Shown here: piece after piece, positions 39,752 to 44,796 of the stretch
Position numbering within the stretch: position 1 is the stretch's first letter
How the letters are laid out: every line of letters starts with the position of its first letter
Origin: Sphingomonas sanxanigenens DSM 19645 = NX02
Lineage (GTDB): Bacteria; Pseudomonadota; Alphaproteobacteria; Sphingomonadales; Sphingomonadaceae
DNA: 64,000 bases
NCBI RefSeq assembly: GCF_000512205.2
Contig: NZ_CP006644.1
Location: forward strand, 5,663,501-5,727,500
Direction of reading: 5' to 3'
Translations under genes and position numbers: made by a program
Notes under the pieces: generated by a model
What the model was told of the DNA's origin: nothing
Databases searched by the model: none
Seen by the model: the letters and a program-made list of their open reading frames with translations, nothing else

Positions 39752-40270
39752 TCAGCCGAGCAGCGTGCGCACCTTCGCCTCGCTTTCTTCGTGCGTCACC
39801 CAGAAATTGCGCGGGGTACGCCCCGCGACGACATCCTCCATGATCGCCAGATGGCTGGTCCAGCCGCCCGAAACGTCGCGCATCGCGTCGAGATTCGGCA
39901 GCCGACTGTGGGTCAGGGTGAGCCGGGTGCCGCCGGCATGCGGTGCGAGCTCGAAGGTGACGATCGATCCGTCGCCCCAATCGTGCCGGAGCAGGTGCGG
40001 CGGCTCGATGTCGATGATGGTCATCTCGCCGCGATGGCCGATCGCACCCTTGTGGCGCTCGGGCACCGCGCCGGGTTCGGGCGAGAGCGTGTTGTGATCG
40101 AACACGCAGATGATCCGCCCGCCCGGCCGCGGATCGACCGCGCCGGCGGCAAACCATTTCGCGCGCTTCCCGGGATCGACCAGCCAGGTCCACACCTGCT
40201 CGACCGGTGCCGCGAGGACGCGGACGATGCGGACGGTGTCGTCGGACAGTTTCTCGGCGAAAGCGCTCAT
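39752..40270 (-). CDS. SRPBCC/AHSA1 domain protein
   Basis: A 172-residue START-like (Activator of Hsp90 ATPase homologue 1) protein. Typical is the opening RVLAAPVEQVWTWLVDPGKRAKWFAAG and the central GEMTIIDIEPPHLLRHDWGDGSIVTFEL; this fold binds hydrophobic ligands. It is third in an ArsR-VOC-SRPBCC operon and overlaps the VOC stop by 4 bases. ArsR regulators paired with AHSA1 proteins are frequent in proteobacteria, but their ligands are generally unknown. Confidence 0.9.
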   Translation of the reverse strand: MSAFAEKLSDDTVRIVRVLAAPVEQVWTWLVDPGKRAKWFAAGAVDPRPGGRIICVFDHNTLSPEPGAVPERHKGAIGHRGEMTIIDIEPPHLLRHDWGDGSIVTFELAPHAGGTRLTLTHSRLPNLDAMRDVSGGWTSHLAIMEDVVAGRTPRNFWVTHEESEAKVRTLLG

Positions 40271-40665
40271 CCTTTGGGCTCCTCGTACAGCATGATCCAG
40301 TTGCCGCAGCCATCGTCGAAGGTGGCGACGGTGGGCATCGCCGCATCGCCCTGCGACGGCGGCGCCTTGAAGGTCACGCCGGCGGCGGTCAGCCGGGCGT
40401 GGTCGGCGTGGATGTCCGCGGTTGCGAAGGCGGTCAGCGGCACGCCATTGGCCTTGAGCGCGCGCTGATAGTCCCTGGCGAAGTCGAAGCCCGCCGGTTC
40501 GAGCGTGATCTGCGCGCCATCCTCATCCTCGGGCGAGGCGAGCGTGATCCAGCGCGCGCTGCCGGCGGGACTGTCGGTCTTGACGACGAAACCCAGCACG
40601 TCGCGATAGAAGGCGATCGCCTTTTCCTGATCCTCGACGATGATCGACGACAATGTGATCCTCAT
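40267..40665 (-). CDS. VOC (glyoxalase/bleomycin resistance/dioxygenase) superfamily protein
   Basis: A 132-residue vicinal-oxygen-chelate protein with two beta-alpha-beta-beta-beta modules: SSIIVEDQEKAIAFYRDVLGF in the first and VATFDDGCGNWIMLYEEP in the second, where metal ligands normally lie. The start ATG at 40665 overlaps the arsR stop by 4 bases. It may be a lyase, dioxygenase or binding protein; the sequence alone does not say which. Confidence 0.9.
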   Translation of the reverse strand: MRITLSSIIVEDQEKAIAFYRDVLGFVVKTDSPAGSARWITLASPEDEDGAQITLEPAGFDFARDYQRALKANGVPLTAFATADIHADHARLTAAGVTFKAPPSQGDAAMPTVATFDDGCGNWIMLYEEPKG

Positions 40666-40997
40666 GCTTCGTCTCCTGTCGCGTGTTCGGCCTTGATGAG
40701 CGCTTCGAGCAGATCGAGCCGGTTGTTCCAGAAATGCTCCCACTGGCGCAGCCATGCCTCCGCCTCGGCGAGCGGCGCCGGGGCGAGCGCGAGGCGGTGG
40801 ACGCGGCCCTCGACGCGGCGCGTCACCAGCCCGGCGCGCTCCAGCATGCGGACATGCTTGGAGGCGCCTTCGAAGCTGATGGCGAAGGGCTGGGCGAGTT
40901 GGCCGATCGAGCGTTCGCCGAGCGCGAGGTTCGCCAGCATCGCGCGGCGGGTGGGGTCGGCAAGCGCCTTGAAGGTCGCGTCGAGTCGTTCAACCAT
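40662..40997 (-). CDS. ArsR/SmtB-family winged-helix repressor
   Basis: A 111-residue ArsR-type regulator (LDATFKALADPTRRAMLANLALGERSIGQLAQPFAISFEGASKHVRMLERAGLVTRRVEGR). There is no metal-binding Cys motif, so it is not a classical metal sensor. It opens the ArsR-VOC-SRPBCC operon. The ATG at 40997 lies within one palindrome and about one base from the predicted transcription start, which suggests a leaderless mRNA. Two 18-bp sites nearly identical to each other flank the promoter and imply strong autorepression. Confidence 0.92.
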   Translation of the reverse strand: MVERLDATFKALADPTRRAMLANLALGERSIGQLAQPFAISFEGASKHVRMLERAGLVTRRVEGRVHRLALAPAPLAEAEAWLRQWEHFWNNRLDLLEALIKAEHATGDEA

Positions 40998-41006
40998 AGG
41001 GTTGAA
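40989..41006 (-). promoter_or_regulatory. ArsR operator A, over the start codon and -10 end
   Basis: TTCAACCATAGGGTTGAA is a near-perfect palindrome (TTCAACC/GGTTGAA). It covers the arsR start codon (40997-40995) and the downstream edge of the -10 hexamer TATCTT (41010-41005). Confidence 0.8.
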
Positions 41007-41027
41007 GATAGACGCGACCCTCTTTTC

Positions 41028-41046
41028 GATCAACCATTCGGTTGAA
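41028..41046 (-). promoter_or_regulatory. ArsR operator B, over the -35 element
   Basis: ATCAACCATTCGGTTGAA (41029-41046) matches operator A at 15 of 18 bases, 40 bp away. It overlaps the -35 hexamer TTGATC (41033-41028), which is separated by 17 bp from the -10 TATCTT. Together the two sites bracket the whole promoter. Confidence 0.8.
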
Positions 41047-41049
41047 TGA

Positions 41050-42375
41050 TCAGTCTGCGAACAGCAGCACCGGCGTTTCGAGCAGCGTCTTGACGGCCTG
41101 GACGAAGCTCGCCGCATCCCACCCGTCGACGACGCGATGGTCGCAGCTGATCGACAGGTTCATCAGCTTGGCCGCGACGATCTCGCCGTCCCGGATCACC
41201 GGCCGCTCGACGATGCGGTTGGGGCCGATGATCGCGACCTCCGGGCGGTTGATCACCGGGGTCGTCGCGATGCCGCCGAGCGGGCCGAGCGAAGTGACGG
41301 TCAGCGTCGAGCCCGACAATTCTTCCGACCTGGCCTTGCCGCTGCGCGCGGCGTCGGCCAGGCGGAGGATGTCGCTGGCGAGCTGCCAGACATTCTTCGC
41401 CTGCGCGTCGCGGATCACCGGCACCATCAGCCCGGCATCGGTCTGCGTCGCCATGCCGAGATGCACCGCGCCGTGGCGGGTGACGACACCCGCCTCGTCG
41501 TCAAAACGCGCGTTGATCATCGGGAAGCGCGGCACTGCCCTGCAGATCGCGACGATCAGCAGCGGCAGCAAGGTCAGCTTCGGCCGGCTGCCGCGATTGT
41601 CGTTGAGGTCCGCGCGCATGTCTTCCAGCGCGGTGACGTCGATCTCCTCGACATAGGTAAAGTGGGGTATGGCGCGCTTCGATGCCGCCATATTCTCGGC
41701 GATGCGGCGGCGCAGGCCGATGACCTTGACGGTCTCGTCCGCTCGCGCGGCGCCGGCGGGATGCAGGCCCTGCGCGGCGCCGTTGTAGGTGAGATAGGCG
41801 TCGAGATCGGCATGGCGCACGCGATCGCCCTGCGCGGGCTTCACGTCGGCGAGGTCGATGCCGAGCCTATGCGCGCGATCGCGCACCGCGGGGGAGGCGA
41901 GGATCTTCTTCCGCTCCTGCTGCTCCCTCTCCCCTTCGGGAAGAGGGCCGGGGAGAGAGGCAGTGTCCGTGTGACGGATTTCGGGGGCGGCACCGCTCGC
42001 TTCGCCTCGCTCGGCTCCCCTCTCCCCGCCCTCTCCCCAAAGGGGAGAGGGTGCCGCCGCTTCCTCGACCTTCTCGACCGTCTCCGCGTCAGGCGTTTCG
42101 GCGGCGATCCGCTCGGCGACCTCGCCGGCTTCACCCTCCACCTCGATCACCACCAGCGCGGAGCCGATCGCGATCACATCGCCGACCTCGCCGCCGACCT
42201 GAACGACCTTGCCGGCCACCGGCGATTCCATCTCGACCGTCGCCTTGTCGGTCATCATGTCGCAGATCTGCTGGTCTTCGGTGACCAGGTCGCCCACCGC
42301 GACGTGCCACGCGACGATCTCCGCCTCGGAAATGCCTTCGCCGATATCCGGCAGCTTGAACGTGAACAGCGCCAT
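41050..42375 (-). CDS. bkdB: Branched-chain 2-oxoacid dehydrogenase E2 (dihydrolipoyl acyltransferase) with repeat-derived insert
   Basis: A 441-residue E2: one lipoyl domain (1-80, lipoylated Lys in MTDKATVEME), a linker, a peripheral subunit-binding domain (about 158-195, ILASPAVRDRAHRLGIDLADV), and a catalytic acyltransferase domain ending with SISCDHRVVDGWDAA, the active-site His-Asp signature. The linker contains PSPLWGEGGERGAERGEASG...SLPGPLPEGER (about 109-150), translated from a palindromic repeat at 41925-42051 without breaking the frame. It is encoded after E1alpha and E1beta, 112 bp from the latter. The assignment as branched-chain rather than pyruvate complex rests on the E1 sequences. 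Confidence 0.93.
   Translation of the reverse strand: MALFTFKLPDIGEGISEAEIVAWHVAVGDLVTEDQQICDMMTDKATVEMESPVAGKVVQVGGEVGDVIAIGSALVVIEVEGEAGEVAERIAAETPDAETVEKVEEAAAPSPLWGEGGERGAERGEASGAAPEIRHTDTASLPGPLPEGEREQQERKKILASPAVRDRAHRLGIDLADVKPAQGDRVRHADLDAYLTYNGAAQGLHPAGAARADETVKVIGLRRRIAENMAASKRAIPHFTYVEEIDVTALEDMRADLNDNRGSRPKLTLLPLLIVAICRAVPRFPMINARFDDEAGVVTRHGAVHLGMATQTDAGLMVPVIRDAQAKNVWQLASDILRLADAARSGKARSEELSGSTLTVTSLGPLGGIATTPVINRPEVAIIGPNRIVERPVIRDGEIVAAKLMNLSISCDHRVVDGWDAASFVQAVKTLLETPVLLFAD
41925..42051. repeat. Palindromic repeat element inside the bkdB reading frame
   Basis: Two hairpins, CCCTCTCCCC-AAA-GGGGAGAGGG (42029-42051, perfect 10-bp stem) and CCCTCTCCCC-TTC-GGGAAGAGGG (41925-41947, one mismatch), flank about 80 bp. 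The design resembles the intergenic REP-like doublet near lexA. Here it is translated as a Gly/Pro/Glu-rich linker between two E2 domains. Confidence 0.85.
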
Positions 42376-42386
42376 TACCCGTTGCT

Positions 42387-42460
42387 CCGTTCGTCCCGAG
42401 CGCAGTCGAGGGACATTGTGGCCGCGGAAATCGTGTCTCGACTACGCTCGACACGAACGG
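42387..42460. repeat. Nested inverted-repeat element between E1beta and E2 genes
   Basis: Outer arms CCGTTCGT (42387-42394) and ACGAACGG (42453-42460) enclose two inner hairpins, GTCCC...GGGAC around 42393-42414 and GTGTC...GACAC around 42433-42454, each containing CGA and TCG arms. This compact 74-bp element looks like a mobile-repeat type of sphingomonads. It fills most of the 112-bp gap. Confidence 0.8.
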
Positions 42461-42487
42461 TGGAGAGGAGAAAGCGGTTCATCGCGA

Positions 42488-43501
42488 TCAGTCCTTCAGG
42501 ATCTTCTTGAGCGCCTCGCCGATGCGGACCGGGCCGGGGAAATAGGCCCATTCGAGGCTGTGGGGATAAGGGGTGTCGAACCCGGTGACGCGCTCGATCG
42601 GCGCTTCGAGGTGGTAGAAGCAGCGCTCCTGCACCAGCGCCGAAAGCTCCGCGCCGAAGCCGGCGGTTCGCGTCGCCTCGTGGACGACCATGCACCGGCC
42701 GGTCTTCTTCACCGACTCCTCGATCGTCTCGATGTCGAGCGGCAGCAAGGTGCGCAGGTCGATGATCTCGGCGTCGACGCCCAGATCCTCGATCGTGCTC
42801 GCGACGACGTGGACCATCGTGCCGTAGCACAGGATCGTCACCGCCTCGCCGGGGCGGACGATCGCCGCCTTGCCGAGATCGATGCGGTAATAGCCCTCCG
42901 GCACCTCGCCCGCGGGGTGCGCCGACCAGTTCCGGGCCGGGCGGTCGTAATGGCCGTCGAACGGGCCGTTGTAGATGCGCTTGGGCTCGAAGAAGATCAC
43001 CGGATCATTGTCCTCGATCGCGGCGATCAGCAGCCCCTTGGCGTCATAGGGGGTGGAGGGAATGACGGTCTTCACGCCGGAGACATGGGTGAAGATGCCC
43101 TCGGGGCTCTGGCTGTGCGTCTGGCCGCCGAAGATGCCGCCGCCGAACGGCGAGCGCACCGTCATCGGCGCGATGAACTCGCCGGCGGAACGGTAGCGCA
43201 GCCGCGCCGCTTCCGAGACGAGCTGATCGAGCGCGGGATAGATATAGTCGGCGAACTGGATCTCCGGCACCGGGCGCAGGCCATAGGCGCCCATGCCCAC
43301 GGCCACGCCGATGATGCCGCATTCGGTGATCGGGGTATCGAACACGCGGGTCTTGCCATATTTGGCCTGCAGCCCCGCGGTGGCGCGGAACACGCCGCCG
43401 AAATAACCGACATCCTCGCCCATCACGACCACCGCGGGGTCGCGATCCATCATCACGTCCATCGCGCTGTTGATCGCCTGGATCATGTTCATCCGGCTCA
43501 T
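42488..43501 (-). CDS. bkdA2: Branched-chain 2-oxoacid dehydrogenase E1 beta subunit
   Basis: A 337-residue transketolase-like beta subunit. Typical: MNMIQAINSAMDVMMDRDPAVVVMGEDVGYFGGVFRAT, FDTPITECGIIGVAVGMGAYG (with the E1beta catalytic Glu region) and GGGIFGGQTHSQSPEGIF, a form characteristic of branched-chain E1beta. With E1alpha it decarboxylates 2-oxoacids from Val, Leu and Ile. The start overlaps the E1alpha stop by 4 bases. Confidence 0.95.
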   Translation of the reverse strand: MSRMNMIQAINSAMDVMMDRDPAVVVMGEDVGYFGGVFRATAGLQAKYGKTRVFDTPITECGIIGVAVGMGAYGLRPVPEIQFADYIYPALDQLVSEAARLRYRSAGEFIAPMTVRSPFGGGIFGGQTHSQSPEGIFTHVSGVKTVIPSTPYDAKGLLIAAIEDNDPVIFFEPKRIYNGPFDGHYDRPARNWSAHPAGEVPEGYYRIDLGKAAIVRPGEAVTILCYGTMVHVVASTIEDLGVDAEIIDLRTLLPLDIETIEESVKKTGRCMVVHEATRTAGFGAELSALVQERCFYHLEAPIERVTGFDTPYPHSLEWAYFPGPVRIGEALKKILKD

Positions 43502-44796
43502 TTGCGCGCCCCCGGCCGGCCGGCGACGTCATATTCGGACAGCATTTGCGCGCGCTGTTCCTCGAGGTGCCAGGGGATCTCCTCGAACACCCCCTCGAAC
43601 AAGGTTTCCATCGGCTGGTGCATGCCGTGGCCGAGCACGCCGTTCTTCTCGGCGGTGCGCGCCGCCGCCTTCACATATTCGGCGAGTTCGAGGTCCATCG
43701 CTGCGTGGCGCTCGTCGTCCCATTCGCCGAGCGCGATCAGATGCTGCTTGAGCCGCGCGATCGGATCGCCGAGCGGCCATTCGCTGCGTTCGTCGGCGGA
43801 ACGGTAGGCGCTGGGATCGTCGGAGGTGCTGTGGCCCTCGGCACGATAGGTGAAATGCTCGATCAATGTCGGGCCCTGGTTCGTGCGTGCGCGTTCCGCC
43901 GCCCATTCGGTCGCGGCATAGACCGCGAGCGCGTCATTGCCGTCCACGCGCAGGCCCGCGATGCCATAGCCGATCGCGCGCGCCGCGAAGGTGGTCGATT
44001 CGGCGCCGGCAAAGCCGGAAAAGCTGCTGATCGCCCACTGGTTGTTGACCACGTTCATGATCACCGGCGCGCGATAGACGCTGGCGAAGGTGCAGGCGGA
44101 ATGGAAATCGCCCTCGGCGGTGGATCCCTCGCCGCACCAGGTGGCCGCGATGCGGGTGTCGCCCTTCGCGGCCGACGCCATCGCCCAGCCCACCGCCTGC
44201 GGATATTGGGTGGTGAGATTGCCCGAGATCGAGAAGAAGCTCGCCTCGCGCACCGAATACATGATGGGCAGCTGCTTGCCCTGCAGCCGGTCGCCCCTGT
44301 TCGAATAGATCTGGTTCATCATGTCGACGATGTCCCAGTCGCGCGCGATCAGCAGGCCTTGCTGGCGATAGCTGGGGAAGCACATGTCGTCGGGCTGCAG
44401 CGCGAAGGCGGCGGCGACGGCCACCGCCTCCTCGCCGGTGCACTTCATGTAGAAGCTGGTCTTGCCCTGCCGCTGCGCGCGGAACATCCGCTCGTCGAAC
44501 GCGCGGGTCAGCGCCATCGCGCGCAGCATCGCGCGCAGGCGATCGGGCGTCAGCCGAGGATCCCAGGGGCCCACGGCCTGACCATTGTCGTCGAGTACCC
44601 GCACCATGGTATATGCGAGGTCGTGAAAACTGTCCGGTGCCGCATCGGCGGCGGGGCGGGGGGCGGTACCGGCGGCGGGGATGGCGAGGTCGCCGAAATC
44701 CACCGAATCGCCCGGGCGAAACCGGGGTTCGGGTACATGCAGCCGAAGCGGCGGCAGGTTGCGGCGGTCGGGCACGCCTTCCAAGGCTCTCTCCAA
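43498..44796 (-). CDS. bkdA1: Branched-chain 2-oxoacid dehydrogenase E1 alpha subunit
   Basis: A protein of up to 432 residues binding thiamine diphosphate. The ThDP motif runs GEGSTAEGDFHSACTFASVYRAPVIMNVVNNQWAIS, and the phosphorylation-loop-like YRAEGHSTSDDPSAYR follows. The N-terminal 65 residues include LHVPEPRFRPGDSVDF, typical of bacterial BkdA1. The start is uncertain: the longest frame begins with TTG at 44796; a TTG at 44784 has GGAGAG 4 bp upstream and a GTG lies at 44775. The three bkd genes run together; E3 (lpd) is not in the window. Confidence 0.93.
   Translation of the reverse strand: MERALEGVPDRRNLPPLRLHVPEPRFRPGDSVDFGDLAIPAAGTAPRPAADAAPDSFHDLAYTMVRVLDDNGQAVGPWDPRLTPDRLRAMLRAMALTRAFDERMFRAQRQGKTSFYMKCTGEEAVAVAAAFALQPDDMCFPSYRQQGLLIARDWDIVDMMNQIYSNRGDRLQGKQLPIMYSVREASFFSISGNLTTQYPQAVGWAMASAAKGDTRIAATWCGEGSTAEGDFHSACTFASVYRAPVIMNVVNNQWAISSFSGFAGAESTTFAARAIGYGIAGLRVDGNDALAVYAATEWAAERARTNQGPTLIEHFTYRAEGHSTSDDPSAYRSADERSEWPLGDPIARLKQHLIALGEWDDERHAAMDLELAEYVKAAARTAEKNGVLGHGMHQPMETLFEGVFEEIPWHLEEQRAQMLSEYDVAGRPGARK

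Follow-up and report, generated by a model that had tools for sequence, protein, structure and literature searches.

Introduction

REPINs are made of two hairpin repeats in inverted orientation, occur in many copies that are mainly intergenic, and bear a GTAG or GTGG tag at the foot of the hairpin. Rickettsia palindromic elements (RPEs), as described in PMC2229807 and PMC10969869, measure about 105-150 bp, lie in frame within genes of functional proteins and have been reported from many unrelated genes. Regarding REP sequences, PMC3733652 describes GTAG and CGTC elements, single or dimeric, within the genes of many bacteria, the tRNA synthetases of S. alaskensis included; its authors propose that insertion into a flexible linker or loop is neutral, and different REPs near the same recB site are described for two Xanthomonas.

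Here, we describe a palindromic repeat inside an E2 acyltransferase gene in a window (the whole stretch of DNA analysed, 64,000 nucleotides) of the Sphingomonas sanxanigenens genome. As compared by description, it resembles the RPEs, being a palindromic element of 139 bp (fold z -6.8) carried in frame by the gene of a conserved protein, and differs from them in that one linker recurs across the family as the site and several repeat types are found there. It resembles a REPIN as an inverted hairpin doublet with many, mostly intergenic copies, but its repeat type (A1) is devoid of the GTAG/GTGG tag, and our search gave no RAYT gene with A1 on its flanks. Palindromes read in frame have been described before, also within linkers (PMC3733652 and the RPEs); what is new is the recurrent exchange of several types at one linker. 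Repeats in E2 linkers are not described in the literature searched, which omits most subscription papers and the gene table of PMC3733652; the main text of that paper contains none of the words "lipoamide", "lipoyl", "acyltransferase" and "dehydrogenase", and an E2 may still be in its gene table (Additional file 3).

Results

A palindromic doublet translated in the linker of a branched-chain E2

The E2 frame of 441 residues is open throughout, with no stop in its translation, and Pfam assigns Biotin_lipoyl to residues 5-77, E3_binding (the E3-binding domain) to 158-191 and 2-oxoacid_dh (the catalytic domain) to 212-439 (Table 1). The sequences HRVVDG and DKA, which we take to be the catalytic and lipoyl motifs, are both found in the translation. 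The complex is taken as branched-chain because the E1 alpha gene has a 2-oxoisovalerate dehydrogenase E1 alpha N-terminal domain.

Table 1. Features of the E2 locus, in window coordinates.
Feature	Position	Strand	Evidence or remark
E2 acyltransferase gene (bkdB-like), 441 aa	41050..42375	-	Pfam domains; adjoins E1 subunit genes
Interdomain linker, predicted disordered, residues 93-155	41911..42099	-	AlphaFold2 pLDDT<50
Palindromic repeat doublet, 139 bases, in frame, residues 107-153 (47 aa)	41919..42057	-	Arms, fold z, genome matches
Hairpin 1, 23 bases, one stem mismatch	41925..41947	.	Sequence reading; resembles repeat-family core
Hairpin 2, 23 bases, perfect	42029..42051	.	Sequence reading
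Second palindrome, E2/E1 beta intergenic gap	42387..42460	.	Arms 42387-42410 and 42437-42460, 24 nt, 88% complementary
E1 beta subunit gene	42488..43501	-	Transket_pyr and Transketolase_C
E1 alpha subunit gene, start codon provisional	43498..44796	-	E1_dh and OxoDH_E1alpha_N

The two hairpins are mutually inverted, their outer arms (41919-41952 and 42024-42057) being 85% complementary over 34 nt, and the coding-strand RNA of 41919-42057 folds at -96.9 kcal/mol, whereas 200 dinucleotide shuffles average -65.7 +/- 4.6 and none of them is as low as the native sequence (z -6.8). AlphaFold2 (28-sequence alignment, mean pLDDT 71.0) gives a pLDDT below 50 over residues 93-155. The first-pass annotation had read two hairpins translated in frame inside bkdB, between the lipoyl and subunit-binding domains, and both points are confirmed. 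The place that it gave was right, while its bounds (41925-42051, residues 109-150) are better set at 41919-42057 and residues 107-153. Its comparison with RPE insertion into protein linkers holds as an analogy, supported by an in-frame palindrome in a disordered linker.

A scan of 40000-44000 against Rfam yielded no match at gathering scores. The palindrome of the intergenic gap is of another type than the E2 element and resembles by eye the B2 repeat of other linkers.

The element is a repeat of its own genome

Across the 6.58-Mb genome, the element yields at least 73 rows of matches (E<=10), a count that includes the two strands and its own place and comes from 40 scored candidates out of 80. 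The best match elsewhere has an E-value of 7.8e-10, with 93% identity along 40 nt; a complete doublet is found at C1:5773236-5773349. The likeness to intergenic repeats is hence borne out at the DNA level. The refuting case named by the first-pass annotation, in which all relatives would carry the same segment and its DNA would bear no likeness to intergenic repeats, is not what is found, because the segment matches the intergenic repeats of its own genome.

A copy was called genic when a single frame was open and coding-like on both of its flanks. After examination of 38 loci, nine of which were dropped as chance matches (L206, L209, L214-L220), none of the 32 other elements tested (doublets and single hairpins) was genic by this approximate criterion, which does flag bkdB but recovered four of five known bkdB inserts, missing L260 in genome G049, and flagged L243, which by eye precedes a gene start. 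The bkdB copy is therefore the sole genic one among those tested in this genome, and the RPE trait of the same repeat in many genes of one genome is not seen here.

Regarding the tags of known REPs, the hairpins of 20 own doublets, read on both strands, contain GTAG or GTGG in none of 66 readings and CGTC in one of 66, which sets A1 apart from the GTAG and CGTC REPs. Class C linkers do share with the CGTC REP the CGTC tag, a short stem starting with AT and an unpaired CCA tail; these features are found in the two arms of the L039 linker as well as in nine arms of five copies in its genome, the first two stem bases being variable.

Several repeat types occupy the same linker in relatives

Of 199 genomes of the same family, 158 have an E2 orthologue at E<=1e-100. 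From 29 and 80 loci plus the window, 110 linkers were collected, of which 105 were distinct after removal of five duplicates. By hand labelling, 85 of these 105 carry a repeat and 20 carry none, in a set that over-represents repeats because both of its parts were ranked by similarity to the query, two search peptides lying within the linker. The labels, given after visual inspection of translations and hairpin cores, comprise eight hairpin types (A1 in 32 linkers, A2 in 7, A3 in 6, A4 in 6, A5 in 1, B1 in 16, B2 in 4, C in 12, and A1 with A3 in 1), among which A1 to A5 perhaps derive from a single stock. Labelling by regular expressions gave false class C labels and was rejected in favour of the by-eye labels.

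Placed on the flanking-domain tree, the type labels require at least 54 changes, compared with a mean of 65.0 for shuffled labels (0 of 200 shuffles as low), while presence or absence of a repeat alone requires 17. The median linker is 63.5 aa long without a repeat and 71.5-77 aa with one, the window's element itself encoding 47, figures that suggest replacement by the insert more than addition.

The comparison of bkdB among relatives, proposed as a check by the first-pass annotation, revealed that the contents of the linker do differ. L019, the E2 placed closest on the tree, has an Ala/Pro linker devoid of repeats, and L016 shares the left flank of the window's E2 with the slot filled by a different repeat. 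Conserved flanks with unlike contents are also found for L112 (S. echinoides, A1) and L095 (Sphingomonas sp. PsM26, C), L048 (A3) and both L098 and L090 (none), L017 (A1) and L106 (none), L026 (A4) and L076 (B2), and, in Sphingopyxis and its kin, L040 (B1), L117 (A2) and L061 (A1). With this variation and the low pLDDT of the linker, the proposal of a flexible E2 linker as a site tolerant to an inserted repeat is supported. The picture is broader than the one first drawn, since several repeat types occupy one slot, and the E2 linker has the look of a permanent target for mobile DNA.

Inserts of five types are resident repeats of their hosts

In searches of host genomes, the counts include both strands and the place of the query itself, and at most 40 candidates were scored, which makes them lower bounds. 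The B1 insert (L040) has at least 20 rows in G121, at least 62 in G167, at least 39 in G148 and 2 in G047, and none in the window's own genome (G000) or in G106, whose linker is repeat-free. The C insert (L039) has at least 18 rows in G049 and no match in G000, G126 or G106; the A2 insert (L043) at least 47 in G154 and 1 in G106; and the A3 insert (L048) at least 32 in its own host and at least 65 in G170. Five repeat types (A1, A2, A3, B1 and C) are multi-copy in host genomes. As for the repeat-free L019 linker, it finds in its genome itself and two pieces of 34 and 38 bases.

When 60 copies from four relatives were submitted to the genic test, four were the bkdB inserts themselves, and the remaining 56 gave six flagged copies, five of which were upheld by eye. 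The search for copies inside genes, empty in the own genome, is thus positive in three relatives: in-frame repeats are carried by RecF (L231, G154), ArgS (L259, G049) and, in G167, methylmalonyl-CoA mutase (L261), IleS (L266) and MurD (L274), as named by NCBIfam, whose full-length mutase and IleS models are below cut-offs on these partial frames. In G167, three genes besides bkdB carry a B1 repeat. The presence of repeats in other enzymes of G167, G154 and G049 makes the E2 slot a favoured site, not the sole one. The IleS and ArgS inserts agree with the intragenic REPs described for tRNA synthetases in PMC3733652. The MurD frame contains by eye a second, class C-like stretch.

Extent of the phenomenon and paralogous linkers

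Among the 30 linkers formed by the 29-locus set and the window, 21 were labelled with a repeat and 13 fold at z<-3; the 80-locus set, in which the window's nearer relatives are mostly Sphingomonas, Sphingobium and Sphingopyxis, gave 64 and 49 of its 75 distinct linkers, respectively. Only 7 of 87 further, lower-ranked family members fold at z<-3, about 14 having repeats recognisable by eye, so that the habit is strong mainly among the window's nearer relatives and sparse among the other family members sampled. Outside the family, 12 alphaproteobacterial E2 linkers (from 13 loci, L288 being left out) showed no repeat by eye.

A fold at z<-3 is found in 62 of 105 branched-chain E2 linkers, compared with 2 of 28 for PDH-E2 (28 of 30 loci being used, with L142 and L148 left out) and 1 of 30 for OGDH-E2. 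For the 30-linker set the difference from PDH-E2 (13/30 vs 2/28) has a Fisher p of 0.002, with rows that are related by descent. Other E2 linkers are not immune, since by eye the PDH-E2 linkers L138 and L143 have B1-like motifs and L139 has A5-like hairpins. A pooled blastn search with the linkers against 873 kb of flanks (matches for 92/110 branched-chain, 18/28 PDH and 17/30 OGDH linkers) was not retained as a measure, because linkers rich in Ala and Pro match too.

Discussion

Taken together, these data make it quite probable that the flexible linker of the branched-chain E2 received a mobile or once-mobile repeat and has retained it, and that this slot has been refilled repeatedly in sphingomonads. 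A palindromic repeat would insert between the lipoyl and E3-binding domains, through what we infer to be a REP-type transposition process, and the copy would be kept because its frame is open and the linker tolerant, that is, presumably through tolerance rather than benefit. The older linker sequence would then be lost or eroded, the total length staying within range, and the inserted copy would drift under weak purifying selection until another repeat, often of another type, replaces it.

Regarding the first of these steps, about half of the six frames are open through sampled genomic copies (65/120 in the own genome with 20 of 32 elements, 57/102 in G154 with 17 of 20, 39/60 in G121 with 10 of 13, 68/114 in G167 with 19 of 20 and 15/30 in G049 with 5 of 7), and a frame-keeping insertion would therefore often be readable through. 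Regarding the drift, pooled pN/pS over 19 pairs is 0.36 for linkers with a shared insert and 0.12 for the domains, which were compared gap-free, single ratios being rough; the slot evolves under relaxed but real constraint.

Against this explanation, no target-site duplication was defined for the inserts. Moreover, the linkers of PDH-E2 and OGDH-E2, although likewise rich in Ala and Pro, mostly lack such a fold, and plain tolerance alone does not explain this; weaker selection on the branched-chain E2 is our guess for its excess over the paralogues. As to a transposase, the own genome has one Y1_Tnp match, in a gene resembling a REP-associated tyrosine transposase (60.3 bits for a cut-off of 80), and the A1 core is absent from the 3.3-kb locus of this single RAYT-like gene. 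The gene itself (L014, 341-2154; G000:C1 about 103271-105084) has GTGTCCC motifs on both sides.

Selection might instead keep the slot filled, the repeats providing linker length or their mRNA hairpins slowing the ribosome between domains. The enrichment in one of three E2 paralogues, the convergence of several repeat types on one place and a total linker length held within range all suit such a function. The 20 of 105 linkers that lack both a labelled repeat and excess structure (median z 0.33) indicate, however, that a hairpin is not required, and the preference for acidic frames, being equal in repeat-free linkers (19/20 vs 75/84), does not mark the repeats out; we regard selection for the repeat as unlikely. 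That one ancient insertion was inherited by all and later diverged appears very improbable: A1 is indeed the most frequent type and several clades have an insert in common, but the hairpin cores differ between types, B1 and C queries match nothing in the A1-rich own genome, and A1 alone needs 17 gains or losses on the flanking-domain tree, at least nine of them forced by starred branches. Least credible of all is an ordinary low-complexity linker made repeat-like by its GC-rich composition. Ala/Pro linkers do also yield weak blastn matches; nevertheless, no dinucleotide shuffle folds as well, the genome copies match most or all of the doublet and a repeat-free linker has no such copies, which refutes this reading for the window's copy.

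The repeated insertion that we favour would have a wider, more tentative corollary, which we hold as possible rather than as our expectation: the branched-chain E2 linker of sphingomonads would be an exchange slot, with active repeat families converging on the same replaceable part of a protein. The locus offers a multi-species natural record of mobile DNA turning into protein in one gene, and, as close relatives occur with and without the repeat, questions on repeat tolerance, on the erosion of new peptides and on linkers as safe harbours in multi-enzyme complexes become askable. It is also a warning that linker length and sequence are poor homology markers in such proteins.

A special acidic-frame reading of the repeats was considered and rejected, repeat-free linkers preferring acidic frames just as strongly; the most acidic open frame is the one used in 75/84 repeat linkers, 19/20 repeat-free ones, 23/30 of OGDH-E2 and 14/28 of PDH-E2. 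As to GGGAGAGG, its basic phase is rarer in A1 linkers, with 10 of 71 occurrences (a raw count, uncorrected for kinship).

Finally, several linkers have particular features. The one of L081 (S. gilva) contains two unlike repeats in tandem, A3 then A1, and in L112 another palindrome is nested within the left A1 arm. A GCGTCT microsatellite, read as Ser-Ala repeats, stands ahead of the class C repeat in L039. Between L058 and L068, the hairpin loops differ from one species to the other, yet left and right are complementary within each, as if they had changed together.
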